NCBI RefSeq assembly: GCF_036669915.1 | Contig: NC_089325.1 | Span: 5,111,400-5,175,399, forward strand | Source of the DNA: Pocillopora verrucosa | Lineage: Eukaryota > Cnidaria > Anthozoa > Scleractinia > Pocilloporidae | Length of the DNA: 64,000 bases | Reading direction: 5' to 3' | Shown: piece after piece, positions 11,645 through 63,823 of the stretch | How positions within the stretch are numbered: the first letter of the stretch is position 1 | Layout of the letters: each line of letters opens with the position of its first letter | Program-made: the position numbers and the translations under genes | Notes under the pieces: generated by a model | What the model saw: only the letters and a program-made list of their open reading frames with translations | The model's database searches: none | What the model was told of the DNA's origin: nothing

Positions 11645-12086
11645 ATGTTTAAAAAGTTTTGAATTGGCATCCTGAATTTTGGCACGAATGGATTGTACTA
11701 AAACAGCTGGACAGATTTGGAAAGTTCAGAGCGGCAATGTAGAATTTGTTCGCTGAGTTTGTTACGTTTTTGGCACATAGCTCTGATTGTGATTCTCATA
11801 ATATTACGTGAAAAAGAATTTTGGGCGCACTGAATTTGGTGACGATATTGATTCGAATGAGAAAAAGAAGATGTGTGAAAATTGGAGCGAAAACTCTTAG
11901 GAATAACTTTGGAATGAAGGCAACGGCCGATGAAATGGATGTGACTACAAAATCTAGTTTTGGCGTAAATGAGAACGGCTAAACGGAATGCTAGATCTTT
12001 ACTAATAGGGGGGAAAGGAAAAAGGTAACTTACGATTTCCGATGGCTAATTTACGTTTTCAACCCAGTTGTTAACTCTAAATTACC

Positions 12087-25627: not shown

Positions 25628-26695
25628 ATGGAGCTCAACACTACGAACTCAACCTCGGCGAATACTGCGGAAGCACCTCCGACTTTGAAGCACGGTGCGA
25701 AAGCTGCTTTTCTCTACGATATCTATTTAACGAGAGGTGTTCTCGCCATCAGCATGGCAGTGATCACATCATTCTCAAATGGCCTTGTGATATTTTTAGT
25801 TCTAAGAGATCCAAAGAAAAATCTTCGTTCATCTCCAACATGTCTTCTTGTAGCAAGCCTTGCTCTGGTGGATTTAGCAGTCGGCTGCGGCCTGGAGCCT
25901 ACGGATGCACTCTATAGTCTTGCCATTGCAAATAGAAAGAAGCCCAGTTTAGATCGAAAAGACTTGCAGAGTGCTGCCGCGTTTCTTCTCTTGTCCTCGA
26001 CAGTTCTGGTGATGCTGATAACTTTCGACCGACACACAGCAGTATCTCGACCCATTCAGTACCCTTACAGCATCACAAAGAAAAGAATCACCATAAGCGT
26101 TGTGTTAGTCTGGGTCTATTGTGCGATTCTTATAGTAGCAATACGCCGCTGGGGAAAAGAACTCAGGAACATTCTTTTTTGTGCTCATATAGACTTGGTT
26201 TTGTTCCTTACCACTGGCCTTTTCTGCAGGATTGTCTACGTGCTACGACAACAAACAAACATGTTAAAACGGCTAAGTGTGAGCTTGAACGGTACTTTTG
26301 TGGTTCAAGCGTCGGCTCGTGAACGGAAGGTAACGCTCACACTCGCTACTATGCTCGTGGTATTCCTATTCTGTACCATGCCCTGGTTTATCATGATGCA
26401 GATCTATGATTACTGCCAAATTTGCCAGAAATACTGGTGGATCATGAAGCTCCTGTTTATTCTCTTCGAAGCGAACTGCGCTATCAACCCGTTCTTGTGC
26501 ACATTCCGTCTGCCGCGCTACAGAGCGGCGCTGCGATTGACTCTGACGCAGTGGGGGTTTTCACGTGTAATTTGTCAATCTTCGCAGCGAGCCAGGCGTG
26601 CGTATGTACTCAAGCAAAAACGCTTGAGTAATGGAAATCATTTATGTGGAAAGAAGAGTCTACAAATTCAAGTTTTGCTTTGCCGCCGGTTATGA
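25628..26695 (+). CDS. Orphan class A (rhodopsin-like) GPCR, copy 1
   Basis: Intronless, 355 residues. Seven hydrophobic segments are visible: TM1 with SNG (N1.50), TM2 with LVASLALVD (D2.50), TM3 ending ITFDRH (the DRY site, with His for Tyr), TM4 with VWVYC, TM5, TM6 with FCTMPWF (CWxP variant) and TM7 with CAINPFLC (NPxxY variant with Cys). Three or more N-glycosylation sites (NTT, NST) lie in the short N-terminus. The usual TM3 cysteine is not evident. The receptor is a close paralog of the minus-strand gene at 30-31 kb. The ligand is unknown; the overall look is that of the amine/melatonin/opsin-like assortment expanded in cnidarians. The C-terminus may be frameshifted (see findings). 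The start ATG fits the paralog alignment. Confidence 0.9.
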   Translation: MELNTTNSTSANTAEAPPTLKHGAKAAFLYDIYLTRGVLAISMAVITSFSNGLVIFLVLRDPKKNLRSSPTCLLVASLALVDLAVGCGLEPTDALYSLAIANRKKPSLDRKDLQSAAAFLLLSSTVLVMLITFDRHTAVSRPIQYPYSITKKRITISVVLVWVYCAILIVAIRRWGKELRNILFCAHIDLVLFLTTGLFCRIVYVLRQQTNMLKRLSVSLNGTFVVQASARERKVTLTLATMLVVFLFCTMPWFIMMQIYDYCQICQKYWWIMKLLFILFEANCAINPFLCTFRLPRYRAALRLTLTQWGFSRVICQSSQRARRAYVLKQKRLSNGNHLCGKKSLQIQVLLCRRL

Positions 26696-30007: not shown

Positions 30008-31078
30008 TTAAAACGCTTTCGGTAAAACAAAACTTGAACTGGAAGCCAGTCTTCCTTTTCTGCCCCCTCGGTTGCTGCAGTTGGCGTCTCGCCTTTGAAG
30101 TTGATATTCTTGCCTTGCGGGACAAGTTGACCTAAAGCAGCGACGAAAAAATTCGAATCGCAATAGGGCCAACTTTACACTTGTCTTGTAAGGAGGCATC
30201 CGCAGTGTACACAAGAACGGATTGAAAGCGCAGTTAGCTTGGAACAAAATAAACAGCAACTTCATGATCCACCAATTCTTTTTGCAAATATCACAATAGT
30301 CAAAAATCTGCATCATGATAAACCAGGGCATAGTACATACAAGGAATATCACAAGCATGAGTAATAGTGTCATGGTTATTTTACGCTCGCGTTCTGAGGC
30401 TCGAACGACGAAGATGTCATCCGAGGACCTGCTAAATCTTTTTAAGCTACTCGTCTGCTTACGCAGCAAGTACACAATGTTACAGAAAAGCACCGTTATA
30501 ACCAACACGACTACATCGACATGAACACAGAAAATTTCATTCCTGAACTTTTCGCCCCACTGTCTTATACCAATGATTAGCAGGGCGCAGTAGATCCATA
30601 CCATCACCACGCTTATGCAGACTCTCCTTTTGGTGATTCTGTGAGGGTAATGAATGGGTCGAGATATCGCCGTGTAACGATCAAACGTTATTAGCAAAAG
30701 TAGAAGCATCGAGCAGAGGAGAAAATAAGCTGCAGCGCTTTGCAAGTCTTTTCTTCTTATGGAGTGCTGCCGTCCAAAAGCTATGGCAAGGCTGTAGTAG
30801 GCATCAGTGGGTTCCAGGAAGCCTCCCACCATGAAGTCTACTAGAGCCAGACTCGCAACAAGAAGACAGCTCGGAGAAGAACGAAGACATCTCTTTGGAT
30901 CCGTCAGAAACAGAAACATTACAAGACCATTCGAGAAAGATGTAATCAACGCCATGGGTATGGCGATTATTCCTCTTGTCAAGTAAACTTTTAAAATTAA
31001 CTCGGGCAGTTCTCGGTGTTTCAAAGTCGATGGTGCCTCATTTGTGGTATTTATCACCAGTGTATCCGTGCCGTTCAT
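30008..31078 (-). CDS. Orphan class A (rhodopsin-like) GPCR, copy 2
   Basis: Intronless, 356 residues from ATG 31076-31078. The open frame extends ten codons further to a GTG, but the first ATG is the sensible start. The protein is co-linear with copy 1 at 25.6 kb: SNG in TM1, LVASLALVD in TM2, a canonical ITFDRY at TM3, VWIYC in TM4, CTMPWF in TM6, NPFLC in TM7. N-glycosylation sites (NGT, NTT) lie in the N-terminus. Its C-tail is Arg/Ser-rich and ends SSSSFVLPKAF. The DRY is intact here, unlike copy 1. It is convergent with copy 1, so the pair is an inverted duplication about 3.3 kb apart. Confidence 0.92.
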   Translation of the reverse strand: MNGTDTLVINTTNEAPSTLKHRELPELILKVYLTRGIIAIPMALITSFSNGLVMFLFLTDPKRCLRSSPSCLLVASLALVDFMVGGFLEPTDAYYSLAIAFGRQHSIRRKDLQSAAAYFLLCSMLLLLLITFDRYTAISRPIHYPHRITKRRVCISVVMVWIYCALLIIGIRQWGEKFRNEIFCVHVDVVVLVITVLFCNIVYLLRKQTSSLKRFSRSSDDIFVVRASERERKITMTLLLMLVIFLVCTMPWFIMMQIFDYCDICKKNWWIMKLLFILFQANCAFNPFLCTLRMPPYKTSVKLALLRFEFFRRCFRSTCPARQEYQLQRRDANCSNRGGRKGRLASSSSFVLPKAF

Positions 31079-31108
31079 ATCGATACGTACTTGACTCGTT
31101 TTGTTCAC

Positions 31109-33755
31109 CTCACGCTTTATCGAAACGTTTGTTTGGTTTCCTTTTTAGCAGCACCCACTCTTGAGTGAAATTTCGAACCAATGAACTCTCCAGCTGCGAA
31201 TCCTAATCAGCAACCAACATAGGTATTGAAAGATTCGAACAAGCAGAGTAGACAAACAAAGACAGACTGTTAAAACGTGCAAGTTTCAACTGTTCCGCAA
31301 CATTCCAATTTCAAGGGCACGTCCTTGACGTGTCTCGAAACTCTACCCGATTGCCCTTGACCGGGTGAAAACGAATTATTCAAAGTTTTCAGCAAGGAAA
31401 GAAAACAAAACACTTAAAAATGCATTAGCGGTTATAGATAGCAGATTTATGGAACTGAAGGGCAAGTAGTTAATATTTGCGCCCAGTGTTAATTTTTATG
31501 CTGGGATTCACTGGGACAAAAAAAAGGGATCGAATGATTTAATCATTCAGGTCATAGTTGATAGACGAAGATAAAGCTGAAGACGAAATCACTCAAAAAC
31601 AAGAACAAATTGACATTAGCTGTCGTGCGTTTGTTTGAGCCGTGTTATCATTTCGCTAACCTGTTAAAAATTGTTGCTGGGTCCGCTGAAACCAACACTA
31701 GTGACATTTATTCTTGTTACATCAGGTTTCGCTGAAGGTTTTAGCAAAGTATCTCGCGTATTTAGGATGTCATGTTCCTCCCATAGAAATGCCGCCGACG
31801 TGCGTCTCCTCATTGTTAACCCTTTACACCTAAACATCAGTATATGTTTTCTCCACATTGTTCTCTATACATTTCCTATGGTACTGACAAAGAGAATTTG
31901 TTTAACAATCAAGAGCGTCGTAAATTGGTGATCGTTTCCTTTATTCTCATGACCTCAATGTTTGTTTTAGGAGGTGATGCTGATAGGGAAAATAGTTAGT
32001 AATCACTCTTAAGGGTTACGTTACACTCAGTCAAAGAAAGAGCTTTCTTTGAAGTGACACAGGTTTTAAGTTAATACCAACTTACTTCGGCACAAACAAA
32101 GCAAATAGAAAAAAATAGGGTCATTTCATCGTAACCTTTTACTTATATAGAGCGAAGGGTATTTCATAGCCTTACAGGCCGGCCTTCATCATTAGCACTT
32201 CTGCGCAAGCGTTTCTTCACTCGCGGGAAATTATAAGGCCTTGAGGGCGGGGAACCGTGCGTCTCGCAGTGCCAATGCGATGATGAGGACTTATTCGCAG
32301 GCCAGGAAGTTCAACTACATAACTCGTGTACTTTACAGCTTGTGAGGTAAAGATTTTGAAGGTTACGCGCAACTGGGTAGAAGGACTGTGCTACACCCAC
32401 AGTTAAGGTCCAAGATGCCGTGATAAACAGTGGAGCCTCCGCTCAAAGAAAACGAGGCTAGAAAAAGTGTCTGTCCGCAAATGATAACTTTTCTCTATCA
32501 TAGGTCCCTCAACTATAACCCGGCATAATTTGTAATTTGTTTCTTCGGCTAGGATCCCTGCAAAGGGAGCTAGAAATCCACAATTTACACGAGCTCAGGT
32601 TACAGATCTGCACAAACGTTCGGGTTGCCGGGGCAACCTTTCTTCCAACCAGAATCCAAAAGCGTTAGCCGTAAAGATGACAAAGAAACCTTTTACAAAG
32701 TCGTTTCGACTGAATAGTGTAGAGACAAGAAAAAGCAACATGCCGTGACGTGTAGACAGGAACAACTAAACAAACACGGTAGTTTGAGCTGAGTGTAAAC
32801 CACGGGGCCAGTTTAAGTTGAAAAGAAATTAACAAAATCCAACCCTACGCGTTAAGTCGTCGTATGTCCTTAACAAGGGTTACCTGGTGATGCGGTAAAT
32901 CTCCCCTACGTTTTTCCCATGAGTACTTGCAAACATTTGAATAAAATAGGGTCACCATTCACGTGCTAAGTATTCCAGGGTCTTGCACGAAGGCCTTGAA
33001 GGTAACGTAGGCAATAGTTCACGAAGTTATAGCAAGGAATCTTTATCCTTCCTGACCACAGTCTTATTTTCCATGAATAGAGCTACCCCAAAATAGTTGA
33101 GATGTCCTAAATTGAAACTTTCAACCGCTAAGGACCGAGCGGAATTTATCAAAAATGATAACGGAATGTGTGAGATTCAATTGACTAGAAGGAGTATCTT
33201 ATCTTGCGCAAATGTAGGATCGAAGACGAAAAAAATGCTTGAATTTAGGCATGGGTTCAATATAATGTTTTTCTTTCAAAAATCTGCAAGCACTGTTCTT
33301 CGTAACCCAGAAATGTACTGAAAACTCAACAAGTTCCTCAAACTTTCTCGGTTTTTCCTCTGTCTGTTTTTAACAATTATCGTGTACTATGCGAAAAGAA
33401 ATATAGCAATATGAAATTCCATTTGCAAGTGCTTCTCTACGAGCATGACCTTACTAATAAACTGGAACACTACCACTCATTAAGATCGTGGAAGCTATGC
33501 GGAGAATGACTGGCTAAAAAAAAAAAAAAAAAGATTGCTCGTTGAATTTGTAACTTATTTACTATTTATCGCTTCTCGTAATCCTTCAAATACTGACTGC
33601 ATTCTTAAGCTTAGGGAAGAAACAAAAACTTTCACCATTTCTTTCAGCCTTAATCAAAGAATCGATAATGGTCTACGGAGATTTCACTCTGACAATTAAA
33701 AAAACAACTTATCACTGCAGAGATACAAAGCTCTTAGACCGTTATTCAGGAATAG
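31109..33755. other. Intergenic between GPCR copy 2 and HSP110 gene
   Basis: No gene recognised. One MITE copy lies at 31816-32019 and a homopolymer A run at about 33517-33532. The right end is the 3' flank of the HSP110 gene. The open frame at 33668 on the plus strand is antisense to the last HSP110 exon. Confidence 0.4.
31816..32019. mobile_element. MITE, family 2 (TTAACCCTTTACACC)
   Basis: Begins TTAACCCTTTACACCTAAAC and ends CACTCTTAAGGGTTAC. The interior (CTCTATACATTTCCTATGG, GAGAATTTGTTTAACAATCA, TCATGACCTCAATGTTTG) recurs at 38.4, 62.4 and 62.7 kb. Non-coding, about 200 bp. Confidence 0.7.
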
Positions 33756-47246
<13,491 letters not shown>

Positions 47247-47342
47247 TCACAACTCTTGAGTGAAACGAAATTCACGTGGCCGTTTACGAAGATAGTGAGC
47301 CGGTTGTCACCGGTCAGCCATGACATGCCATAAAAGGTGACA

Positions 47343-47350
47343 TGACGTCA
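47343..47350. promoter_or_regulatory. CRE/ATF-type site
   Basis: Palindromic TGACGTCA, a perfect CREB/ATF consensus, between the heat-shock element and the start codon. Confidence 0.5.
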
Positions 47351-47380
47351 GGTTCCTACCCAGCTCTTTGCTTCCTTGCA

Positions 47381-47393
47381 GAATTTTCTGGAA
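47381..47393. promoter_or_regulatory. Heat-shock element
   Basis: GAATTTTCTGGAA fits GAAnnTTCnnGAA exactly, the three-pentamer binding site of HSF. It lies about 200 bp upstream of the HSP110 ATG. An HSF site is expected for a stress-induced chaperone. Confidence 0.75.
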
Positions 47394-47398
47394 TATGT

Positions 47399-47405
47399 AG
47401 ATTTC
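47399..47405. repeat. Target-site duplication, left, of 12.9-kb transposon
   Basis: AGATTTC, repeated at 60293-60299. Confidence 0.85.
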
Positions 47406-47514
47406 CAACATGTCCTCATTCTAGAATTACCAATAATCAGTAACTGGCTCAGAGTCTTGTTTTACCAATAATCAGTAAAACAAGAGGCAATGCTAAGGAG
47501 GCGTGGATCCCAAG
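47406..47514. repeat. Left terminal inverted repeat
   Basis: Identical to the complement of 60184-60292. Contains two copies of ACCAATAATCAGTAA (47429-47443 and 47464-47478); the second lies in the partial palindrome TGTTTTAC-n9-GTAAAACA. The TIR also includes an ATG at 47490. Confidence 0.95.
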
Positions 47515-47522
47515 GAATCAAA

Positions 47523-47739
47523 ATGGCGGATCAAGATGAGAGCAGATCTAGGAAAAGGCCAAAGAAAAAGGGAATTAAAGAGTCATCTGCGGATATTATT
47601 GCCGGTCTTGCTAAACTTTTGGATCAAAATGCCGTTAAGAAAACCAAAAAGAAGGCTACAATCATGGAATTTCGGCGAGATCCTCTAACTGGCCGACGAG
47701 TTTATAAATCGAAATACAGACCAAATAGGAAAAGCCAGG
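47523..47739 (+). CDS. Transposon left gene, exon 1
   Basis: 72 codons plus one base to donor GTACGT. Lys/Arg-rich, likely nuclear. The segment DIIAGLAKLLDQNAVKK looks like a short helix. Confidence 0.6.
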
Positions 47740-47882
47740 GTACGTAGGTACTGGTACTGTTTCCAGACGTTTTAGCCTCGTGTAAAGTCATAAAGTGTTC
47801 TCTTTCTTTTCGCGTTTAGTGACTTGGGCTTTTTTTACGCATATATTGTACATTTCCTGAATTCTTTTTACTGCATTTTTAG

Positions 47883-47975
47883 GAGCTAAGAGTACAAATG
47901 ACACTGGCCTTGATGAAGAAATGCATGATTCTTGTGAGCCTTTCATAGAACAGTGCGCAGACCAGGATTCAGATG
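47883..47975 (+). CDS. Transposon left gene, exon 2
   Basis: 93 nt after TTTTTAG. Phase 1-1. Acidic (NDTGLDEEMHDSCEPFIEQC). Confidence 0.55.
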
Positions 47976-48478
47976 GTATTAATCAAAAAATTGTTAGTTA
48001 TATCGTTAGTTGGGTATAAGTTTAGTTTGACATTTGCTGCAACTGAACAGCCAGAACCCGGTCAAATCAGTTTATGCATATTTATAGATGATATTACATT
48101 GCCGCGTGGGTATATGTAAAATAATTGTTGTTGTCGTTTATTAATTTGAAGAAATGAATTTCTGTGAAGTCTTGCCCAACAAATCACACGCAAAAACTGG
48201 AATAACCTTTTTTTCACCATCAATGCCACTTCATTGTTTATATATTTTACCTTATAATGTACTAACTTTATTGCCCACTGGCTTTTGACATATAGTAATG
48301 TAATTGTGCTATGTATCACCCTTATTTCAACCACAGCAACATCGCCACAACAACATTTATATTCAACAACATCAACCACAGCCACCTATATTATTTCACC
48401 CAATCTGCTGTATCACACATTCCACCTAATTTTGGCTGCATATCATTTTATTTTTAATTTTTATCTTTTCCTTGTTAG

Positions 48479-48667
48479 GTTATTATGAATTTCTTCTAAA
48501 TGAAGCAGACGACCTTCTTCATGGTTGAACAGACCTTAGAGACTCCCAAGCGAATGATTGGGGAAAAAGAATGGAGTCAATTAATGCAAATTGGCAAGCT
48601 TCGAGGACCCATTTATTTGAATCAATGCTAAAGTGCTCTGCACCAAGAGTCCAAAAATGTAACAGGT
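48479..48667 (+). pseudogene. Transposon left gene, exon 3 with TGA
   Basis: Acceptor TTGTTAG, donor GTGAGT at 48668. The frame is open on both sides of the TGA at 48526-48528, for 15 codons before and 46 after. Confidence 0.55.
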
Positions 48668-48819
48668 GTGAGTCAAGATAAACACTGTTTACTTTGTCTC
48701 ATGACATACTTAGTCTAGGATGAGTAGTACTTTGAGATGTACTTTTTCTAATGCAATAATGTTAGTAGTCTTTATTAAGCCATGAGGTCACTATCAATTT
48801 TGTTGTCAACTATATAGTA

Positions 48820-49382
48820 CTTACATTACGTGCAAAAATTTTCGGAGGTTTAAATTTCAACGTTTTATTTCAGATGGTTAATTTTCGGACACATTTTTTC
48901 TCATTTTGGACAAATTTTGGACAAAGATTTCGGACACTTCACTGAAACATTGCTAAAGCAATTTTTAAGCCAACAAACGTTGAATAACGCTGCGAAAACG
49001 TGCCTTAAAATTGTTTTTCTGCACCCTTAAGGGTTAACGGATATAACGATGAGAAAATAACACAAATTTTGTCATGTAGATATATGTGAGTATTTCAATC
49101 AGTGTCTCATCTAGAGTTTTTGAGCTTTGGAGCTCAAAGTGGCTTAATAGTCTACGACAAGAATTTGGAAAGGATCTTCTGGTTCTAGCTTCTTAGTGAC
49201 AGCCTTCACTATTCCTGTCATCATATCAGGTTTGTTTCGGCTTACCAGCGTGGTTTGCTATACTGTAAAATTTTCAGACGTTTTAAATTTGGGACGCTTA
49301 AAAAATTCAGACGGTTTATTTTCAGACACTTTTTTTGTTCGAAATTAACACCGTCCAAAATTTTTCGCAAGTAATGTAATAA
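48820..49382. mobile_element. Possible MITE nested in the transposon
   Basis: Inverted ends TTACATTACGTGCAAAAATT (left) and the complement of AAATTTTTCGCAAGTAATGT (right) enclose about 560 bp of T-rich sequence full of TTTTCGGACA/TTTTCAGACA repeats. No coding content. Confidence 0.5.
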
Positions 49383-49615
49383 TTGGGATTGTTCTGTTGT
49401 TGAATTTAAGTTTTCTTAATATTTTGTTATAATTTATGCTTTTTTCCCTTTGTAAGTCTGTTTTGCATTCAATAGACAAATTAGGTTTAATTTCAGTTAA
49501 TCTAATATAATTTCAGCCAATTTTATACCACCATGTCCCTCTTCTACTTATTATGTTGTTAGGGTTAAGTCTTTATGACCCCTTATGTGTATCCTTGGGG
49601 ATCCACTCAATAAAC

Positions 49616-49876
49616 TTAAGTTTGCTTTAAAGGTCCAGTAGAAATTTGTTTGTCTCCTCGAAGCTGCAGAGGCTTAAGAACAAGCAGACCATCTTTTCTG
49701 TCACCTTCGTTAATTAACGGAAACTGGCACGCAACTTTACACCAGTTAGAGATATCAACCATTATGAAACTAGAGGCTGCCAGATAAACGTATGTGTTCC
49801 AAAACCCAAAGCTCAGTTTTTCAATAGGAGCCTCGCCTATACCGGAGTGGTAGCATGTAGTGCGATGAGGAAGGTT
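49616..49876 (-). CDS. Unidentified open frame or exon in transposon
   Basis: The minus strand is open for about 85 codons ending at TAA 49616-49618. The peptide has non-random composition (FGFWNTYVYLAASSFIMVDI, NWCKVACQFPLINEGDRKDG). A possible acceptor (CCGGTATAG) at 49837 would start a phase-1 exon ending here. There is no ATG at the start and no recognised family. It could be a fragment of a captured host gene or of another element. Confidence 0.3.
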   Translation of the reverse strand, partial: NLPHRTTCYHSGIGEAPIEKLSFGFWNTYVYLAASSFIMVDISNWCKVACQFPLINEGDRKDGLLVLKPLQLRGDKQISTGPLKQT

Positions 49877-52105
49877 TTGAAGATCAACTCTTCAGCCTTC
49901 CAAGTCAGTTTACATGGTCCTCAGACTCAGGATTCTTTCACTTCAGTCTGTACTAAATTTAAAGCAACTGAAATGAATTTATTTTTTTATTTCGAGCATG
50001 TCAATGTCATTGTTGAGAAATTTGCGAACATGCATTTAAGAAACTGCTGCACGCAGAGCAATCGTTGCAAAGTGTAAAACACAAAACCTCTGAACAAAAT
50101 CCCAAATTTGGCTTCATGACGAGTGCAGTTGCGCCAGGAAAAAATGTAAATCGCCTCGACAACAAATCACTACAAACATTTATTTTGAGATAAAAAGCTC
50201 CAACACCGAGATAATAAAACTGATGCACCGGTTAAAACTAGACATGCAATTTATTTTTTTTACCAATGGGAAACCTCTCTCGAACAAAGTAAAATTTCAC
50301 ATGATTCGAATGTTTATGAGCAAACTGTATAATCAGGTGCAGTAATTACATAAGGCTAACTGTACCAGTTTCAGTTAAAGTTAGTGTAAAATTCTTCAGA
50401 AAACAAAAGTCACATGTATTAAAGCAACAATGGCAACAGTTCTTCCTATTGAAAAGTCGAAGAAACGTTTCAGTTTAGAAGCTGAACATGTCAAACGCTT
50501 TACCTAAACTCTAGAAAGTGTTGTAGGTTCTAAAGGCATTCCAATAGGAAATAATAACGATATTAAAACGTTTATGTTGGTAGCTGAGGAGTGTTGTGTG
50601 CATTCTCTATCTTTAAATTCGTTTAAGTAAGAACCGCGTAATATCCAACCCAAGGGAAGTTGGAAGTGTTGGAAGCAATCACAAATTAACATTGTTTGCA
50701 GCTATTTAGTCCATAATTTTTTGAAGCAGAAATATACCCGTTTTTTCAAATCTTCTGTAATTCCTGAGGAAATAATTTGAATGTTCATTCTGAAGGCTTA
50801 AACAATGTTTTATTTTTTAGTTGGTAGGAAGGAATACTCGAGAACTGTTTGGGCGGGGGTGTACTACTAGGAATCTGAAACCCTTTATTGTGTTTTAGAA
50901 CAAGATACGATGAATTTTGCAACCGTTCTTTTCCTACCGGCTACCCCAAACTTGCTTTTGTCCACTAAATCTTTGTTACAATTACGTGCATATCTATGTG
51001 CGTGTGCATCGGTAACATGAAATTCAATTTAAATTGAAGTTTCTATTCTGTACCGTTCTTTTCATTCGGTTAATTAATTCCAGCAGGGCTACTGATCAGT
51101 CCACTGGACAGTGTCCAAGTAAATGAAATCATATTCAGATCAAAAAACTGATTCACTGCGCCACACCCTTCACAGCAACTGACACCCCATAGATAGTATG
51201 TACGGGAGTACGTTTTGCTTTACGCTGTCTATTTAAAGTTTCCTAGTGTCAAGTTTGACTCGGCAAATATCACTCTGAGGCTCCCAAATTAATTGCACAG
51301 AAAATGTGTTGCTCATTTGTAATGGCGGATGTATATTTTTTGTTTGCCTGATGAAATTTTGATATTTGAAACAGATGAAAATATCAAGATAAATTCGGAA
51401 TCGCATTTTGTTTACCTGGTGTGTTGAAATGTCTCTTCCGGCTGGTTCGAAGGCCGCACAAAGTGTAATATTCCCCCCTTTGTATTGTTTTTCATGAGAT
51501 GTAGTTAAGGTATGGGGAGTCCCTCTGGCCTGGGACGCGCCAAGACCAGACCGAGGAAAGGTGTCAAAACAGGTTCAACCCGACTTACTCGAGGGTGGGA
51601 AGCTAAACATGACTTCAGATTGCGGTCTCAAGTGCATTGACAGGGTGTGGTACAATGCAATCTATTATATAGGATATTCATACAATCCCAAGGGAGTTAA
51701 TAATGATAATAACCAATGCAAACTAAGTTTGCATAGGTGGTACCGGGGCCAGTCAACTATAGGACGCCGGTTTGCCTTTGTTGTGCTGTTCTGTAGACAG
51801 CTTCCCTTCTATGATCCCGTGGAAAGGATCCTTGTCGCGTGAACTGAATAAGGATCCTTAAAGGAATGACGCTTATTAGAATAGCAGCGCTTGTTTTGAT
51901 GTGGGCGCTTACTAGAATAGGGAGTGCTTAATGGAATAGGGGAGCTTATTAACAAAAACACATTCGAACAGGGGCGCAAGTTGAAAGGAGGACGCTAAAT
52001 TGAGTCATCACGATACATAATCAGAATAGGAATTCGCCAAGATTGCTATTTGTGCATACGTCAGCTTTGGATTCACGACATTTTGGGATACCATGTTTAC
52101 AATAA
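49877..52105. other. Transposon interior, nothing recognised
   Basis: About 2.2 kb of AT-rich sequence. Short open frames on both strands have no domain. No second transposase segment could be found by eye. Confidence 0.4.
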
Positions 52106-55100
52106 TAAGCCAAAACGCATGCTTGTGAAATCGTTTTACGGTAGGTGGGCTAATCTGTGAGCTTTTTCGCAGAAATATGAAAAATTGAATTCAATCAATG
52201 TATGAGAATGAGTTCAATGTTTTGCCAAAACGCTTCTTTTTTGCTATCACTTGTTACGGCGTGTGGCCCAAACTACAGACTTTTTGGCTGAAATGATAGA
52301 AACTGACTTCAATCGATCTCTGACTTCAATCGATGTTTAGGCAAAACACATCCTTTTTGCAATCATTCTAAAAAAAAGTGGCGCAAACCACGGATTTTTC
52401 CACGGACAAATGTGAAAAATGCATTTTAATCAATGCATGCGAATGGGGTCCAATTTTAAGCCAAACGCATCATTTCTGCATTCATTTTGTGGCATGTGGC
52501 CCAAAAAGCGGACTTTTTCACAGAAATAGCCAAAACGCAGGCTTTGCACAACCATTTTACGGCATGTAGCCCAAACTTCAGACTTTTTTGCAGAAAGGCG
52601 AAAAATGGACTGAAATCGATCTATGCGAACGAGTCCAATATTTAGCAAAAACGTATGCTTTGTGCAACCATTTTACGGCATGTAGCCCAAACTACAGACG
52701 TTTTCGCAGAAAGGCGAAAAATGGACCCAAATCGTTCATGCAAACGAGTCCAATATTTAGCAAAAACGTATGCTTTGTGCAACCATTTTACGGCATGTGA
52801 ACCAAACCTGACTTTCTCGCAGAATGGAGAAAACTGGACTGAAATCGATCTATGCGAATGAGTCCTATTTTTGGCCAAAACCGATGCTTTGTGTAACCAT
52901 TTTACGGCATGTGGCCCAAACTACAGACTCTTTCGCATAAAGGCGAAAAATGGACTTCAATTGATCTATTCGAACGAGTCCAATATTTAGCAAAAAGGTA
53001 TACTTTGTGGAACCATTTTACGGCATGTGGCCCAAACCTCAGACTTTTTCGCAGAACTTGGCGAAAACTGGACTAAAATCGATCTATTTGAATGAGTCCA
53101 ATATTTAGCAAAAACGAGTGCTTTGTGCAACCATTTTACGACCATTGGCTTAAACTACAGACTTTTTCGCAAAAAGGCGAAAAATGGACTTTAACCGATA
53201 TATGCCAATGACTCCAATATTTAGCCAAAACGAATGCTTTGTGCAACCATTTTACGACCATTGGCCCAAACTACAGACCTTCTCTCAGAAAGGCGAACAA
53301 TGGACTTCAGTTGATCTATGCGAATGAGTCCAATATTTAGCGAAAACGTATGCTTTGTGCAGCCATTTGACAGCATGTGGCCCAAACCTCCGACTTTTTC
53401 GCACAATGCTGAAAAATGGACTGAAATCGATCTATGCGAATGAGGCCAATATTTACCAAAAACGTATGCCTTGTGTAACCATTTTACGGCATGTAGCCCA
53501 AACTTCAGACTTTTCCGCAGAATGGCGAAAACTGGACTGAAATCGATAAATGCGAATGTGGCCAATATTTAGCGAAAACGTAAGCCCTGTGCAACCATTT
53601 TACGGCATTTTTCGCAGAAAGGCTAAAAATGGACTGAGATCGATCATGCGAACGAGTCCAATATTTAGCAAAAACGTATGCTTTGTGCAACCATTTTACG
53701 GCATGTAGCCCAAACTTCAGACTTTTTCGCAGAATGGCGAAGTCGGCGAAAACTGGACTGAAATCGATCTATGCGAATGAGGCCAATATTTCGCCAAAAC
53801 CCATGCTTTGTGCAGCCATTTTACGGCATGTGGCCCAAACTGCAGACTTTTTCTTAGAAAGGCGAAAAATGGACTTCAATTGATCTATGCGAATGAGTCC
53901 AATATTTAGCGAAAACGTATGCTTTGTGCAGCCATTTGACGGCATGTGGCCCAAACCTCCGACTTTTTCGCACAATGCCGAAAAATGTACTGAAATCGAT
54001 AAATGCGAATGTGGCCAATATTTTGCGAAAACGTATGCCCTGTGCAACCATTTTTCGCAGAAAGGCGAAAAATGGACTGAGATCGATCATGCGAACGAGT
54101 CCAATATCTAGCAGAAACGTATGCTTTGTGCAACCATTTTACGGCATGTGGCCCAAACCTCAGACTTTTTCGCAGAAAGGCGAAAAATGGACTGAAATTG
54201 ATCTATCCGAATGAGTCCTGTACTTTGCCAAAACCGATGCTTTGTCCAACCATTTGACGGCATGAGGCTCAACCTACAGACTTTTTCGCAGAATGCCGAA
54301 AAATGGACTGAAATCGATCAATGCGAATGAGACCAATATTTAGCAAAAACGTATGCTTTGTGCAACCATTTTACGGCATGTGGCCCAAACCTCAGACTTT
54401 TTCGCAGAAAGGCGAAAAATGGACTGAAGTTGATCTATCCGAATGAGTCCTGTACTTTGCCAAGACCGATGCTTTGTCCAACCATTTGACGGCATGAGGC
54501 TCAACCTACAGACTTTTTCGCAGAATGCCGAAAAATGGACTGAAATCGATCAATGCGAATGAGACCAATATTTAGCAAAAACGTATGCTTTGTGCAACCA
54601 TTTTACGGCATGTGGCCCAAACCTCAGACTTTTTCGCAGAATGGAGAAAACTGGACTTAAATCGATCTATGCGAATGAGTCCTATATTTTGCCAAAACCC
54701 ATGCTTTGTGCAACCATTTTACGGCATGTGGCCCAAACTAAAGACTCTTTTGCAGAGAGGCGAAAAATGGAATTCAATTGGAGTCCAATATTTAGCAGAA
54801 ACGTATACCTTGTACAACCATTTTACGGTATGTAGCCCAAACTTTAGACTTTTTCGCAGAATGGCGAAAACTGGACTGAAATCGATCTATGCCGATGAGT
54901 CCTATATTTTGCCAGAACCCATGCTTTGTGCAACCTTTTTACGGCATGTGGCCCAAACTACAGACTCTCTCGCGCGAAAGGCGAAATATGGACTTTCATT
55001 GATCTATGGGAATGAGTCCAATATTTAGCAAACGTATTCTTTGTGCAACCATTTTACGGCATGTGGCCCAAACCTCAGAATTTTTCGCAGAACTTGGGGC

Positions 55101-55690
55101 GAAAACTAGACTGAAATCGATCTATGCGAATGAGTCCAATATTTAGCCAAAACGAATGCTTTGTGCAACCATTTCACGACCATTGGCCAAAACTAGACTT
55201 TTTCGCAGAAAGGCGAAAAATGGACTTCAATTGCTCTATGTGAACGAGTCCTATATTTTGCCAAACCCCGTGCTTTGTGCAACCATTTTACGACCATTGG
55301 CTTAAACTACAGACTTTTTCGCAAAAAGGCGAAAATGGAATTCCACTGATCCATGCGAATGAGTCCAATATTTTACTCTGCGCAACCATTTTACGGCATG
55401 TGGCCCAAAATACAGACTTTTTGGCAGAAAAACGTACTTCATTCGATCTATGTGAATGGGGTCCAATATTCAGTCGAAACACATCCTTTGAGCAATCATT
55501 TTAAAACAAGTTGCCCAAACTACGTACTTTCCACAGACATGCGAAAAAAAGGATGATTTGTGCGACCATTTTACGGCTTGGGGCCCTAACTACAGACTTT
55601 TCTCAGAAAGGTGATAAATGGGCTTTAATTGATACATGCAAATAGGGTCTAATATTTAGCACAAACGCATCTTTTGAGTAGTCCTTTAAC
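52106..55690. repeat. Satellite of about 115-bp units, roughly 30 copies
   Basis: Tandem units marked by TTTGTGCAACCATTTTACGG, CATGTGGCCCAAAC, GACTTTTTCGCAGAA, GGCGAAAAATGGACTGAAAT and CGATCTATGCGAATGAGTCC. Spacing varies around 113-117 bp. The first and last few units are the most diverged. The many overlapping open frames here are by-products of the repeat. Confidence 0.93.
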
Positions 55691-55720
55691 GGTAAGTGGC
55701 CAAAGGTAAATGAATATTTT

Positions 55721-55912
55721 AATGCAATGCAATGCAATGCAATGCAATGCGATGCGATGCGATGCGATGCGATGCGATGGAATGTGCCGTGCCGTGCCGT
55801 GCCGTGCCGTACTTTTATTACTGTACCGTACCGTACTTTTATTACTGTACCGTACCGTACTTTTATTACTGTACCGTACCGTACTTTTATTACTGCACTG
55901 TACTGTAATGTA
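55721..55912. repeat. Stepwise-changing pentanucleotide and 24-bp repeats
   Basis: (AATGC)n passes into (GATGC)n, then (GCCGT)n, then four copies of a 24-bp unit built from ACTTTTATTACT plus GTACCGTACC. The sequence steps from one array to the next without unique spacers. Confidence 0.92.
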
Positions 55913-57105
55913 TTGTAAAGCTTTATTTAACCTCGGCCTCTCCTTCGTCCTTTAATGTTCCCCAGAGAGCCGTGCTAGCTAATAACTACAAAATTAAACA
56001 TATCAATGAATGGTTACATGCGAAAAGATAAATTATATGCATGCATTGTTATTTAATAATTCCTTTAAAACTATTTACATCTTTAGCTTGTTTGGCTTCT
56101 TCGGGATGCAAGGTGAGAAGGTTAAGGCTCAAAACACAAAATTAAGAATATCTCTGGTAATAATTGGACAAGGTACTTTAAACTTGCCAAGCTTGTTACA
56201 CCCAAACAAATACACCAGACGGTGTATAATTTGATGTTGCTATGGCAACATACTCGGTTCCAGGACTCTGTCGTGCAGAAATGATAATTCCTGTATTTGA
56301 TCTTCAAGAAAGGTTGTCTGCTTCCTTTAGTTTGGTTAAAAGACCTAGTGTAATGTAATCGTTGTATATTTTTCAAAAAGAGCCAAGTATTTGAATTAAA
56401 GAGGAAAGGGACCAGTGGTTCTTTCAGATGGAGGTTGTTCTGAAACAGTATGAGAAAAAAATGAGAAAAGATTGTAAAAAATAACTGAACTAAACTAGAA
56501 AACTTTAGAAACAATCATGAAAAAAGTATATAACTTGGTTTGGCAACATAAAAACAAAAATTATTTTTGATGGCATTACGATGAAAACCAGAAATTGATA
56601 TGTAGTAGTGCTAATGTCATGTTGGAAAAAGTGTTACACTGTAATTAGTGTACTTACAGGGAATAAATAAATTTTAAAATATTGCAGTAAATGTAGAAAT
56701 TACAGTTTATATGTTGATTATAATTATGTTTGAAATTGTTTTCAATAAACAAGTCTTGCATATACATAATAGGTAGATAGTACGTTAGAAATTGTAAGTC
56801 CAGACGTTTTGTTTCTGGGTGTGTTATTTTTTTATATTTCAAGTTAATAAAGAATGCTTCTTACTCAATAGGTTTTAGATCCACACAAGTAGTAATATGC
56901 AACATTTTATTATTTCCAAGTGTAAGATCGTACCATAATAAAATCGTTTCAATGCTCTGAGCACTGTTGCTCCATGACTCTGGGACTTTTCATTTTCTGC
57001 ATCCTTTAAGAAAAGCCTGCCACTACCTGGAGTGCCATAATAATAAAAAAATGTGGCGGTCAGTCTCCCGACCAGGGACACCGGAATGAAAAAAACACTA
57101 TGACA
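55913..57105. other. Transposon interior, nothing certain
   Basis: AT-rich. A 130-codon minus-strand open frame (56122-56514) is Leu/Phe-rich with no domain. I do not call it a gene. Confidence 0.35.
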
Positions 57106-60100
57106 TCATAATAGTGTTTCTGGTACAAAGTGTCTGCCTAAGAAAACATATACACAAAATTTCAGTACTTATTAAAAGGCACTAACATTAACATGATAGG
57201 AAATACTGTCCAAACAAAATTCAGGAATGCAATTAGGTCTTTGTCATACCCTTAACTGCAGGCACCTCTTCTGAACAGTTACATTTGTCTTGCCCTTTTC
57301 CCTTATTTTTTGCCAGTAGGCATCATGAGGATCTTGGGGATCATCACTGAATCTTCTCTAAAATGACAAATACAGTATAATAATAAAAATAATAATAATA
57401 AAATGTATTTATGTAATACGTGTATATGTAATGCATGTACTTAATTAAAAGTCATAAGTTAACTTAAAAGTTATTTAGTTGTTATACAAAATAGGTAACT
57501 GTCATGTAAAAACTTGACTGCTGACTATAATTTACCAACAGTTTTTCTAATCACCATTGGCACTGACAAACTAACAAACACTGACCACACTGGTACGACA
57601 TTCCATCCCCACAAATCTTGAATGACAAATGCTAAACGTTAAATGTAAAAACTTTAATGTACAATCCACTGAACTTGAATGTGGAATGCAAAAACTTGCA
57701 TACTAACTAAGACAAGGTGAATGTACAAGGCAAAAACTTGAATTTTGCACAAGGAAAGTTGAATGGCGAAAGTGCAAACTAAGAATTTGTACAACAAATG
57801 TAGAAGCAAATGCAAAAAGAAGAATGAAAAAGCAAACATTGAATTTTGACAGGGATGAAATGTCATACCAATGCAGCCAAAGATGATTTTATGAACAATA
57901 TTTTGACTACTTAATTTGATGGAGTATGTCTATGATTCAAGACTGAGAAATGTAATTGTAATGTGACCCATTGACTCCCCAGTCATTTTTGCATGTTAAA
58001 AAGAAAAGTAGAATAACTGGTAATTATTTAATATAGCATTTTGATTTCACTCGAAGAACACTGGGGGGGAGGGGTGCATGGAGAAGTTACAACTTATAAT
58101 ATCCAAAGTGTTTAGATCCTAAAAAAAGAACATAATTTAACTTCATGGCTATTAGATTATTGATCTTTAATACTGAGCAAGGAGAAATAAACATGGATTA
58201 TTGAAAGTAAAAATACGTTGGGTATTTTTATCTGTCTACCTCAAGAAGTTAGAAGCAAAGAGACTAATACCATACAGATTTTGCTAAATAGAGGATTGTT
58301 TAATAAACTGGAAAACCGGTTTAATTTGAAAAGCAGTTATTCACGAAACTACAGATAGTCTACTAGCTAAAGTAAGAAAACTTCAAACTCCTTTGAAAGA
58401 TGATCGTTTTCTGATGTTGACTTATTTTGGAAATAACTTCAGGAGCATTCAATGTGCACTCTGATGAATTAGAGCTACCAGGGAATACAATAGGTCTATC
58501 CTATAGCATGGCGGGCTCTGTTAAACCAAAGCATCACAATTTTTGATTCACTAGAATGAAATCTGATGCACTCCATGCTGATAATCTTCTGTATCATCTT
58601 TTAAAGTATTCTTCACTTAAAGGACCCTAGTCAGCCAAGCCCTGAAATTCTTGAAATCCGCCATTCTTGATGCCATTGAAATTATGAAAATTGTGTGGTG
58701 AAGCAAAATCTTATTGCAGCGCCGCAAGTTGTGTTACTGGAAGTCTGTTAAAGCACCTTTAGCAGTTTTGAGGGGATCCCTTCGTTTTGACATGCTCCGC
58801 ATAAAATATAATACCGGAAAACCCGTATGTAAAGAAAATCAAAGGCGTGGCTGCCTAGGGTCCTTTAACACCTCTTAAAGGCGATGGATGCAAATAACAA
58901 TTTTTTTTGGTTCAGAAAATTTTCACATTCTCAAATAACTTGGGGGAGAGGGGATGGGGACGTATTTAAGCGGCCACAATTGGGACTTTGAAAACTGGCC
59001 ACATAATAGAGGTTGGCCATTTAATAGAGGTATAAATACTTTAATAGGGTAGAAAAATGACAGTAAAAATAATTTATTGATCTGTATAGGAAAATGTTCC
59101 TTGAAAAGTGTAAATATGTGAGTGTACATAATTGAGTATGGGAGGCACGGAGAGATGTAAAGTGAAAAACCTTTCCATAGCTAGGGCAAGGTACTCAGGT
59201 AACAAAGCCAGGGTTAATCAGTGATGTGCATACCCCTACGGCCTCTGCAAGTCTCTTGAACCATAGAATAGTCATTCAATCACCACCAATTTGGCTTGAA
59301 AAGCAATAAATAATAACCTTGTGACAGCCAAAAGGTAGCTGAATAGACTAATCGAATACAGCAGTTTACTAACAAATAATTGGAGACTTTGGGAAGTGGC
59401 CACCTAATTATGGAGGGTGGCCGCTTAATAGAGGTCCTACTGTAGTACAAAGTACAGTAGAATAAAAAGGTGTTACACTTTAAACACGATCAACAATCTA
59501 TACTGTATTTCCATGTTAAACTGAGATGACAATAGAGTGGATCAAGCAGAAGCCTACCTTTTTACGTCTAGGCTGTGAAGAATTGGATTCTGATGAATCA
59601 CGGAACTGAAATTAAGAAAGTAAGAAACAAATACTAAATACTTGAGGTAAAAAAATCAAACGAGAAAATCAGAAAGAAGAACTACTTCTATCAAACGACG
59701 TATTGGCAGTGATCGCAAAAAGTTTTCACGGTAAAATGCGGCCATTTCGACACATCATTTGGCGCCGTCGATGGCTACGGTGACAAAAAGCGCGAAATAA
59801 AAAGTAAAATTGAACAGTTCAAAACGTCAAATCGACAAAACGGATGTAAATTAGTTTTATAACAAAGTGGACGCATTGCTCAACTATGCTTAACGCCGAG
59901 TAAAATGTAGCGCTGCGAATTTGGAGTACAAGTTGATTGGCGAGACTGATCAGCTATTCAATGAATATTCAACAGGCAACACAGAAATTAGCATTGCAAA
60001 TTGTATCAAAATGCATACGAAATATGCATATATATATACAAAAAGAAAGGTATAGGATTATTTCCTTTTCACGGAAAAAAAAAATAGACAAAGAAATAAA

Positions 60101-60161
60101 GGAGAAAGACCAAATAAAAATAAAATTATACCTGTTCCCTCTTTTCGCTTTGCTCCGCCAT
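57106..60161 (-). CDS. Small multi-exon gene driven from the right TIR
   Basis: Exons 60132-60161, 59558-59605, 57250-57358 and perhaps 57106-57137 join with consistent phases (0, 0, 1) to about 72 residues. The start is ATGGCGGAGC, 22 bp inside the right TIR, in an AAGATGGCGG (YY1-like) context. The protein is hydrophilic: basic SQPRRKKRRFSDD, then DPHDAYWQKIRGKG and a CNCSEE motif. Family unknown. The last exon (acceptor TTTTCTTAG, stop TGA) is the least certain. It may be the truncated start of a longer transposon protein. Confidence 0.4.
57250..57358 (-). CDS. Right-TIR gene, exon 3
   Basis: 109 nt after ATTTTAG. Encodes RRFSDDPQDPHDAYWQKIRG and a CxC motif. Exits in phase 1 at GTATGA. 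Confidence 0.45.
59558..59605 (-). CDS. Right-TIR gene, exon 2
   Basis: 16 codons between AATTTCAG and GTAGGC (FRDSSESNSSQPRRKK). Nuclear-localisation-like basic end. Confidence 0.45.
60132..60161 (-). CDS. Right-TIR gene, exon 1
   Basis: Ten codons (MAEQSEKREQ) then donor GTATAA. Phase 0. Confidence 0.4.
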
Positions 60162-60183
60162 CTTGTTTCAGAAGAGCGCGTTG

Positions 60184-60292
60184 CTTGGGATCCACGCCTC
60201 CTTAGCATTGCCTCTTGTTTTACTGATTATTGGTAAAACAAGACTCTGAGCCAGTTACTGATTATTGGTAATTCTAGAATGAGGACATGTTG
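60184..60292. repeat. Right terminal inverted repeat
   Basis: 109 bp, exact complement of 47406-47514. Confidence 0.95.
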
Positions 60293-60299
60293 AGATTTC
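60293..60299. repeat. Target-site duplication, right
   Basis: AGATTTC, matching 47399-47405. Confidence 0.85.
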
Positions 60300-62033
60300 A
60301 GCTGTACGTGCACTGCCTGGAAAAACCGGAAGTCTTAAATCAAAGATCAAGTGTGCGTTCCTTTCGGTTTAAAATGCTTCAAGAAAGATGCCTCTCGAAC
60401 TTGGCCATTCGTTGAGGTGGCAAACATTTATCTTACTTTGTACATATGTATACCTCAAGTACCGGAAATACCAATCAACTGATTCCAAAATATTATTTTC
60501 AGTGAACTCAATAAATTTCTGTAATAATCGGAGAAAACAGATACAAAATCTCAGAATGTTACGGTTAAATAGCTTTGAGAAGGGTTACTCGCAGGCCAAG
60601 AATGGAAGAGTTGAAGGGATATGATTCAAACAGTTGTACGGTGTAACATAGTTATCAACTCACCCCTAAGGTACGTAGTACAACATAGAGTACAACAGTC
60701 CACGCTGGTCTTGCTTTGTAGTCAGACACGCACTGTGACAGCGGATTGTTTAAAACTGTTAACTTACACAGTTAATGGAAGTTGCATTTATATAATTTCA
60801 GATACAAATTCTAGAACCTTTCAAGACGACCTCATTATAGAAATATTACACAATTTAGTTATTCCTGGTGACTTACACTACTTTCTAAAATAAGCAAGGG
60901 CTACAGAACGAAAAGTCTGTAGGAATCAAGTTTCAAACTGCTCTAGAAGCTTATGGAAATTTCTAGTCTGCACAGTCAAGAAGGTCAAAATTTTGCGGCA
61001 CAGAACGACCCAGAAAGTTCATTAAAAATTTTAGAAAAATAGGAAAAAAAGAAAAAGAGATTTCAGAAATTGAAAGCTGTCACCGGAAATGAGATTCAAA
61101 ATCCGTTCAATCTCATCACGAAGCCCTCGCCTCCCCAAGGACCTGTGGGTTCTGGGGACGAGAATATTGAAAAAGCCGAAAGAACCCTGAACACGAGTTC
61201 TCAATTTATAGTATTATCCTTTCTCTCAGCGAAAATTTAGTTGATGTTGATGGCTAATGACAGCGAACAAGGCCTAATGACGGTGACTGATGTCTTGTGA
61301 CGGCGAGTGATGTTCACTGACGGTTATTAATATGCAGCAAATCTGAAGAATCGTCAAGCTGTAAATCTTTTCAAGCGTTAGATACTCCATTTCCAGTTTT
61401 TAATCCATGAATATAGGACCACCGACATTCTGGGTAGAACAACGGTAAAAGCCAGCCCGCGTAAAACGAACCGGAATTCGTGGAGGGTCCAACATAGGTT
61501 TTGCGGAATGCGGGATGCGGGAAGCGAGATGAGGCTTAAAATCGAGGCGGGATGAGGGATACCAGATTTTTTAAAGCTGAGATGCGAGATGTAAAATATG
61601 TTTTATGACAGCATCTACAAAACTTAGAATGTTCAGAAACGGGCGTGCAAGCATCTGTCGTTGTTTGGGACGAATCTAAGACATTCGCGAAATCAATCAT
61701 CTTCTCTCCTTTCAAATAAATCGTTGTGATATCATCTCTTTATTTTTATTACTCGGGCTTCCCTAGTTATAAATTGGGCAAAACGTAGCCAAGTCCTCAT
61801 CACGCATGCGCAACCTTTTGACTTTGACGTATGCGCCACTTTTGACTGATGAGCACATGGTGTAGTGGTGGACGAAGAGGAGCTTTGGCGGTGCAAAATC
61901 AGACATAAAACAGTTACAGGATAAACTAATAACTGCACAAAAAAAACTTAGGCACATAGAAAAAAACAAAGTTTCTTTCCAACAGAAAGCCCGAGTGAAC
62001 GCAAATATGCGTCTAGTTACGTAATCTTCTAGT
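60300..62033. other. Displaced upstream region of HSP110 and 3' flank of ACY1
   Basis: No gene recognised. Before the transposon arrived this sequence abutted the HSP110 proximal promoter. A short HSF-like TTCAAGAA occurs at 60378-60385. Purine-rich GATGCGGGA-type repeats lie around 61500-61590. Confidence 0.4.
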
Positions 62034-62186
62034 TCAAAATGGTTGCACATTTGCCAGAGCTGTTAACAACTCGCAATAGATTTCTATTCCGTGCAGAAAA
62101 ACTTTCTCGTTGAGGAATTCATCATGGTCATGGAGAAGAATCGGTGTGTTGTTCATTGGCGAGAAACCGATTGCGGGAAGACCCAG
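62034..62186 (-). CDS. ACY1: ACY1 last exon
   Basis: 50 residues and TGA. Contains GFSPMNNTP and HDHDE, the strongest ACY1 signature in the window. Confidence 0.95.
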
Positions 62187-63823
62187 CTGTGAAGATGGAA
62201 AACACATTAAAAAAAATTATTAAGTAGGGCAACTGAAGTGTACCTACAGTGTCAGTTTAAATGTCAGAAGATGAGTCAATACGAAAGTCGATGTCATGTC
62301 AAAACGGTCAAAGTCGCTTTCACTCAGCGTCGTTATCAATGTAGAAGTCAAAGGCGACATCAGTAAATGTCATTGTTGATGAAGACAATGAAGAAATTAG
62401 CCCTTTACGCTGAAACATCAGTATGCATTTTCTCCAAACTACTCTTCATACATTTCCTCTGGTGCTGACAAGGAGAATTTCTTTGACAACCAAGTGCTTC
62501 TTTAATCGGCAATCATTTCCTTTATTTTCGTGACCTTAATGTTTGATTCGGGGGTGAAGAGAAATTAGATGCTAGTCACTTTTGGGGGTTATGGTATCAA
62601 AGTTAGCTGAACGTTTCATAACAAAAAAAACGTTCAGGGAAAAAAAGTATCAAAGTTTGGTGATACAATTTCTTAATTAGTCAATAAGAGTAGATAAACG
62701 TTCTTCTTAACCCTTTCACGCCTAAGAGAGACTAACAGCTAATTTCTCCTTACAATATCTCCTCTGAGTTACACATAAAGGTCACAAGAATGAAGGAAAT
62801 GATCACCAACTAAAGAGGGTCTTGATTGTTAAACAAATTCTCCTTATCAGCACCTTAAGAAATGTACGATTAACAGTATGGAGAAAATGCATACTGATAT
62901 TGTGGTGAAAAGGGTTCAGTATTTCTTGCTGGTTAAAGGACTGTACCTTGCGTAAAAAACGGCTATCAGTTCCAGCAGGGAAAATCTCTTTCTCTATTTT
63001 CATGTTCCTGAGAAAGAAAATAAGCAAACAAAATTAAATAAGAAATTGAGATATGGTATACATTTCCGGACCGGTCGATCTAAAAACCAGCGGAGTAACG
63101 CAAAGGCCAGCGAGTATATCACTGAGAGCAAATGTTTTTCTTATTCTCTTCTGGAATTGGTTGCAAAAGTTTTCGTTCCTTTACTTTTTATTTGCCAAGG
63201 AAAATTTTATGAGAAGATTTATTGATTGAGTCCTTTAACAAAACAACATAAGGCAAGGTTGAAAACTGACATTTTCTTGCAAGTGGTACTGAAGGCTTTC
63301 CACCAAGGGTCATCTTCAGTAGTCGGTGTCAAATTGTAGTTATTTGCTTTCTGAAAGAAGAAAGAACAGAAACATTTAACAATACAAATGTTAGATTTAG
63401 TAAATAATATAACGTATGTTTTATGCTTCTTCTACAGTAACATAGGGCGTAACCAGAAAAGAGGGGAAGGATCCTTCCATCGCATCTCTTTGGTACCTAG
63501 ATGTGACTGTTTATTACCAAATGCTTTTAAGTTATTGGAAAAGGACCCCCACCACCCCACCCCTCCTGAGAGAAGTGACCAGTGACCTTGCTATACTATA
63601 ACAGGGTTCCTCAGAGCCTTGTACCTGTAAAAATTCATATGATACATCTTCTCCTGCTTCATTACACCACAGCTTTATTTTGTTCTCAAGTTCCTACAAG
63701 ACAGATAAAAAATCATCAATGGAATTACAACAACACAGTTTACAAGCAATAAATTGATACCACAATGAGATGAACTGTACTATACCACAAAGTCCATTGT
63801 TGGGGTGATTCTGATGTCAAACA
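62034..63823 (-). CDS. ACY1: Aminoacylase-1, 3' five exons (partial)
   Basis: Aminoacylase-1 is a cytosolic zinc peptidase of the M20 family that frees amino acids from N-acetyl forms. Exons in coding order are 63786-63823, 63625-63693, 63271-63350, 62947-63007 and 62034-62186, all with consistent phases. They encode the dimerisation domain end ([35 protein letters not shown]), then the last catalytic segment: [28 protein letters not shown] and [20 protein letters not shown]. The HDHDE motif carries the family's last zinc-ligand His. TGA is at 62034-62036. The first half of the gene lies beyond the right edge. Confidence 0.93.
62397..62591. mobile_element. MITE family 2 copy in ACY1 intron
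   Basis: TTAGCCCTTTACGCTGAAAC start, GACAAGGAGAATTTCTTTGA interior, TCACTTTTGGGGGTTA end. Lies between the last two ACY1 exons. Confidence 0.65.
62707..62926. mobile_element. MITE family 2 copy, inverted
   Basis: TTAACCCTTTCACGCCTAAG start. The interior is the complement of the 31.8-kb copy (TTGATTGTTAAACAAATTCT). Ends AAAAGGGTT. Opposite orientation to the copy at 62397, only about 115 bp away. Confidence 0.68.
62947..63007 (-). CDS. ACY1: ACY1 exon (second from last)
   Basis: 61 nt, [18 protein letters not shown]. Phase 0 exit. Confidence 0.92.
63271..63350 (-). CDS. ACY1: ACY1 exon (third from last)
   Basis: 80 nt, [20 protein letters not shown]. Donor GTCAGT, phase 2 exit. Confidence 0.9.
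63625..63693 (-). CDS. ACY1: ACY1 exon (fourth from last)
   Basis: 23 codons, [20 protein letters not shown]. Phase 0-0. Confidence 0.9.
63786..63823 (-). CDS. ACY1: ACY1 exon (fifth from last)
   Basis: 38 nt, phase 1 entry, [12 protein letters not shown], donor GTATAG. Confidence 0.85.

Follow-up and report, generated by a model that had tools for sequence, protein, structure and literature searches.

A non-autonomous DNA transposon family with long terminal inverted repeats and probable KDZ ancestry in the coral Pocillopora verrucosa

In this study we describe a transposable element of 12,887 bp (∼12.9 kb) in the coral Pocillopora verrucosa, at positions 47406-60292 of a 64,000-nucleotide stretch of genomic DNA (the window; NCBI RefSeq assembly GCF_036669915.1, contig NC_089325.1, positions 5,111,400 to 5,175,399, forward strand). 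We consider it very likely that the element is a cut-and-paste DNA transposon which is non-autonomous, has moved recently and is related to the KDZ group, with termini closest to those of Kyakuja; it is probably mobilised in trans by an enzyme from another element. The original prediction, made from the letters of the window, had proposed a KDZ-type transposon. As to ancestry this stands: two exons of the left gene are co-linear with a KDZ locus, and the element has a 7-bp target-site duplication (TSD) and CA..TG ends. As to a transposase of its own it does not, for the KDZ profile PF18758 finds no match in the left protein or in the six frames scanned outside an internal satellite, and the left gene carries an in-frame stop.

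Termini and copies of the element

The two terminal inverted repeats (TIRs) are, as originally claimed, base-for-base identical (109 of 109 positions); past this length there is a mismatch at position 110, and positions 111-112 match again. The sequence AGATTTC, which had also been noted before, lies on both flanks, and the neighbouring bases do not extend the match, so that the duplication is exactly 7 bp. The termini read CAACATG...CATGTTG and thus give CA..TG ends. The 17-mer TTACCAATAATCAGTAA occurs two times in each TIR, in the left one at 47427 and 47462. The inner of these two copies (47462) lies within a 31-nt hairpin; since 9 of 200 shuffled sequences fold equally well or better, the fold is only mildly unusual.

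47399..47405, no strand: left TSD, AGATTTC (flank comparison)
47406..47514, plus strand: left TIR, 109 bp, terminus CAACATG (TIR alignment)
60184..60292, minus strand: right TIR, 109 bp, terminus CATGTTG (TIR alignment)
60293..60299, no strand: right TSD, AGATTTC (flank comparison)

A predicted gene adjoins each TIR, with the ATG of the left gene 8 bp and that of the right gene 22 bp to the inside of it (both in predicted exons). The gene starts had been described as outward-matching, and both genes do begin at the TIRs, but they point inward and converge.

The original prediction suggested searching the assembly (353 Mb, 52 contigs) with the TIR. This search returned 12 matches, so other copies exist; like all genome-wide match counts given here, this number is a lower bound. 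We assigned the matches to seven copies. Four complete elements of 11.6-13.0 kb account for 8 of the 12, namely the one in the window and the following three:

C9:860761-873771: complete copy, 13,011 bp, TSD AAACTCT
C5:20301158-20312783: complete copy, 11,626 bp, TSD AAACACA
C5:6973358-6986287: complete copy, 12,930 bp, TSD TCAGGTA

All four share the CAACATG..CATGTTG termini, and each is flanked by an exact 7-bp duplication of its own (AGATTTC, AAACTCT, AAACACA and TCAGGTA, all different). Outside an internal satellite, the complete copies are 99.4-99.8% identical to each other. The six pairs show 99.65-99.77% identity in the leftmost 1,750 bp; between this part and the satellite the figure is 99.38-99.69%, and in the rightmost 4,300 bp it is 99.60-99.81%. 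The 109-bp TIRs are perfect in three of the four, and the C9 copy has one mismatch, at position 39. Because the complete copies are near-identical and are bounded by four different exact duplications, we conclude from these comparisons that the family moved recently. TIRs and 7-bp duplications at several sites strongly support the identification as a transposon that had been proposed.

The ends of the other three copies (C11, C3x and C3y) are 97.8-99.3% identical to the complete ones. The C11 copy (G000:C11:19330092-19364844, loci L046-L049) has two TIRs, one flanked by TCCCAGC and the other by its reverse complement, with element sequence beside them in opposite orientations and a break at element position 8,987. 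We read it as one insertion that was later split by an inversion. This copy also holds an extra 2 kb with an open reading frame (ORF) of 110 amino acids, for which we found no Pfam match. On C3 there are two single TIR ends, and in each a run of N starts where the element sequence stops; the 30 kb read for each copy did not reveal the opposite end.

G000:C3:27967408-27971842: copy cut by a run of N
G000:C3:24472299-24479798: copy cut by a run of N

The left gene and its relation to KDZ

The left gene consists of three predicted exons:

47523..47739, plus strand: exon 1 (MADQDESRSRK...EFRRDPLTGRRVYKSKYRPNRKSQ), predicted; relatives P0001 (spliced), P0002 and P0003
47883..47975, plus strand: exon 2, predicted; joined in P0001 as predicted
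48479..48665, plus strand: exon 3, predicted, 3' end inferred; in-frame TGA at 48526-48528

A protein search returned P0001, a sequence of 164 amino acids (97% identity over 88% of the query) from a cluster of 49 member sequences. P0001 joins exons 1, 2 and 3 without introns at the predicted junctions, begins in the TIR's own frame and departs from the reading frame of the left gene near its end. The simplest reading is that it represents a spliced RNA of a close relative, with transcription starting within the TIR. P0002 (76% over 53% of the query) and P0003 (61% over 40%) are related to exon 1. A search of PDB with P0001 gave no significant match, and searches of collections of viral contigs and genome contigs gave no relatives. 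The TGA in exon 3 is common to four of the five copies in which this exon was seen, including all four complete ones; the C11 copy is open there.

The evidence for a KDZ ancestry comes from the locus L057 (C5:89001-99000), which has a PF18758 match at 98879 (E 2.5e-13). Exons 1 and 3 of the left gene match, in order, two L057 exons that lie ∼3-4 kb upstream of PF18758, the pairings being RKKPRKKTHYEFRTDPTTGIRSNKGTY with KKTKKKATIMEFRRDPLTGRRVYKSKY and NESWAQSRAEIFKFFLQSDFAVPDDAVCERC with NANWQASRTHLFESMLKCSAPRVQKCNRC. Exon 3 ends at a CxxC that is aligned with the CERC of the L057 exon. In Smith-Waterman comparisons with 2,905 six-frame ORFs (L046-L057 and positions 1-47000 of the window), the highest score outside the family fell to L057 both for exon 1 (60, against 47 for the next match) and for exon 3, compared in the form of the C11 copy (73, against 38), and none of 5,000 shuffles reached the score of either exon. 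When tblastn was run with relaxed word settings on 22 loci (66.7 kb), both exons were found again in order, exon 3 with E 1e-4 and exon 1 with E 0.011.

We also searched the whole genome with the L057 exon and obtained 23 matches at E <= 10. Seven of them (the query's own locus among them) are followed on the same strand, 2.0-6.3 kb downstream, by a PF18758 match, and three others are followed by a CxC2 match at 0.4-0.8 kb; the 22nd is exon 3 of the C11 copy of the element. The exon gave no match to a CxC profile, and its tie to KDZ therefore rests on its position upstream of PF18758 and on the recurrence of this arrangement at other loci. Hence the left gene is best read, by similarity and position rather than by profile match, as a putative N-terminal remnant of a KDZ-type transposase.

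Several observations weigh against a KDZ relationship. The match of exon 1 alone is marginal (score 60, with the best of 5,000 shuffles at 59), that of exon 3 has ∼26% identity, and tblastn at default word settings missed the L057 exons. L057 is the one KDZ locus with a readable N-terminal part. The remaining 12 of the 23 matches of its exon have neither a PF18758 nor a CxC2 match beside them, and the match to the C11 copy (E 1.13) runs beyond the exon into a TAA. In addition to lacking a CxC match, the L057 exon reached weak zinc-binding profiles only below their cut-offs. Neither PF18758 nor any CxC profile had a match in the conceptual translation of the left gene or in the six-frame translations of 48450-52502 and 55700-60202 (the parts outside the satellite), and P0001 likewise matched no Pfam KDZ or CxC profile. 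Among 284 candidates from an X-padded search for full-length relatives, none reached E <= 10. Finally, the assembly, in which runs of N interrupt two of the copies, yielded no KDZ element bearing these TIRs.

The original prediction proposed a search for the KDZ domain, and on the protein and frames just named this search came out negative. With regard to CxC (PF18803 and related models), the left gene stops after its first CxxC. No other transposase profile and no TET/JBP profile was found in the same scans, which gave no Pfam match at all for the left protein and, in the six frames, sub-threshold PF02343 only; among the seven copies, the full Pfam scan covered that of the window. In the genome itself PF18758 has 17 matches, of which 16 exceed the cut-off, and CxC2 (PF18803) has 12 at E <= 10, of which 5 exceed it; neither profile matched in any of 14 control genomes. 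None of the 17 PF18758 matches lies inside a copy of the element. The KDZ and CxC2 loci examined yielded no TIR-like sequence, and four short stretches at CxC2 matches showed no exon running from W to CxxC. Because PF18758 has no match in the left protein or the scanned frames, we file the window's copy as a KDZ-related non-autonomous derivative and not as a KDZ coding element. What was found is a non-autonomous family: seven copies with common termini, a stop in the four complete ones and no PF18758 match inside any.

Known systems, rival explanations and a possible mechanism

How does this element compare with systems described before? Fungal Kyakuja elements are reported to have 7-bp TSDs and CA..TG ends and no TIRs (Kojima 2025, PMC12730594). 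The coral element resembles them in its duplication, in its termini (in four of four complete copies) and in the KDZ-type ancestry of its left gene; unlike them, it has perfect TIRs of 109 bp, which adds to the points against the relationship, and neither a catalytic domain nor a TET/JBP profile was found in it. It thereby combines Kyakuja-like duplications and ends with long TIRs. Zisupton, reportedly the sole KDZ group whose transposon nature, including TIRs and TSDs, has been well characterised, belongs to the same transposase group, but Zisupton and a family of the Dileera lineage are reported to make 8-bp TSDs (PMC12730594), whereas ours are 7 bp in all four complete copies. The Zisupton-like elements of the nematode Pristionchus pacificus are also animal KDZ elements with TIRs and, as reported, many exons; they differ in having full KDZ proteins of 1166 and 1367 amino acids and no detectable TSD (PMC9297572). 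Dada elements have a similar TSD of 6-7 bp, but they lack TIRs and insert in small RNA genes (PMC3706591); as positions 47300-60400 gave no Rfam match either, we reject Dada. The fungal hAT7 shares the 7-bp TSD (PMC12730594), but no hAT profile was found in the scanned six frames. One cnidarian paper lists a 'Likely KDZ transposase' (PMC9926710). Our literature search returned no paper that joins KDZ, coral and transposon, nor one that joins Kyakuja and Nematostella.

A possible mechanism would be as follows. A KDZ transposase from another element would recognise the common termini, probably via the repeated TTACCAATAATCAGTAA palindromes, excise the element and reinsert it with a 7-bp stagger. 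Each TIR might hold the transcription start for the adjoining gene, so that one promoter sequence would serve two convergent genes. Exon 3 would have acquired its stop, and the catalytic part would have been lost, before the latest amplification, and the four complete copies would have moved in trans, because all four share the stop, gave no KDZ-domain match and were nevertheless inserted at four sites. It is conceivable, if doubtful, that the family belongs to an undescribed animal KDZ lineage, in which a Kyakuja-like 7-bp TSD and CA..TG ends go together with long perfect TIRs and each TIR promotes one of two convergent genes, a transposase gene and a second gene. The truncated, transcribed N-terminal protein might then act on the autonomous partner, for example by competing for the TIR palindromes.

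In the alternative that survives best, the long TIRs belong to a transposon from a superfamily other than KDZ (a MULE-like, a hAT-like or an undescribed one), which took up the 5' exons of a KDZ gene as a passenger. Such a capture would fit the failure of the scans to reveal a KDZ catalytic domain in the element, and also the reports that fungal Kyakuja lack TIRs and that fungal hAT7 makes 7-bp TSDs (PMC12730594 for both). We nevertheless consider it unlikely: the KDZ-like gene starts 8 bp to the inside of the TIR, which looks like a promoter arrangement and not like a capture; exons 1 to 3 stand in their natural order and are joined in P0001; TSD and termini agree with Kyakuja; and no other transposase profile turned up in the six frames scanned. 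Far less probable is a KDZ transposon that is intact and autonomous and has two genes, which the original prediction implied from the length, the TIRs and the two gene starts adjoining them, given the in-frame stop in exon 3 of all four complete copies, the lack of PF18758 in the scanned frames and the position of all 17 genomic PF18758 matches outside the copies. An assembly duplication or palindrome artefact, which the perfect identity of the TIRs might have suggested, is ruled out by four complete copies at different sites with different flanks and 7-bp duplications of their own, and we give it next to no weight.

Further features and genomic setting

The right gene is short, converges with the left one and is predicted; profile and relative searches assigned it to no kind. 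Its residues are identical in the four complete copies, and a joint query of exon 3 of the left gene and the right gene gave no candidate relatives. Between the two genes lies the satellite, a ∼3-kb array of diverged 116-bp units common to the four complete copies. Its observed/expected ratio of CpG is 1.0-1.2, as against 0.3-0.6 at 55.9-59.4 kb of the window, within the element. It is followed by simple repeats, in which 5-bp units drift from AATGC over GATGC to GTGCC before a 24-bp repeat begins.

60132..60161, minus strand: right gene exon 1 (MAEQSEKREQ), predicted
59558..59605, minus strand: right gene exon 2, predicted
57244..57357, minus strand: right gene exon 3 (RRFSDDPQDPHDAYWQKIREKGKTN...), predicted, with a possible stop or splice donor
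52527..55374, no strand: tandem array of ∼116-bp units (repeat detection), diverged units from ∼52.1 to 55.7 kb
55721..55917, no strand: 5-bp and 24-bp simple tandem repeats (repeat detection)

Elsewhere in the window, ORFs at 10490-12045 (minus strand) look like a remnant of a Penelope-type or related reverse transcriptase, and we take two similar ORFs in opposite orientation, at 25580-26695 (plus strand) and 30008-31144 (minus strand), to be like those of G-protein-coupled receptors. An exon at 62070-62190 (minus strand), with a Pfam match to Peptidase_M20 below the cut-off (E 0.032), presumably resembles aminoacylase-1. One neighbour of the element is a gene of the HSP70 superfamily, which we assume to be Hsp110/HSPA4-like:

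47073-47180 and 39942-40367, minus strand: parts of the HSP70-superfamily gene

The insertion is upstream of this gene, 225 bp from its start codon (ATG at 47180, minus strand), and the left TIR may lie in the promoter. In conclusion, four complete and near-identical copies with clear ends provide a defined substrate, with a 109-bp TIR and a 7-bp TSD, for finding the transposase that cuts them. In addition, an HSP70-superfamily gene with a young insertion 225 bp upstream of its start codon offers a natural case for asking: does the promoter of a TIR affect the neighbouring gene?

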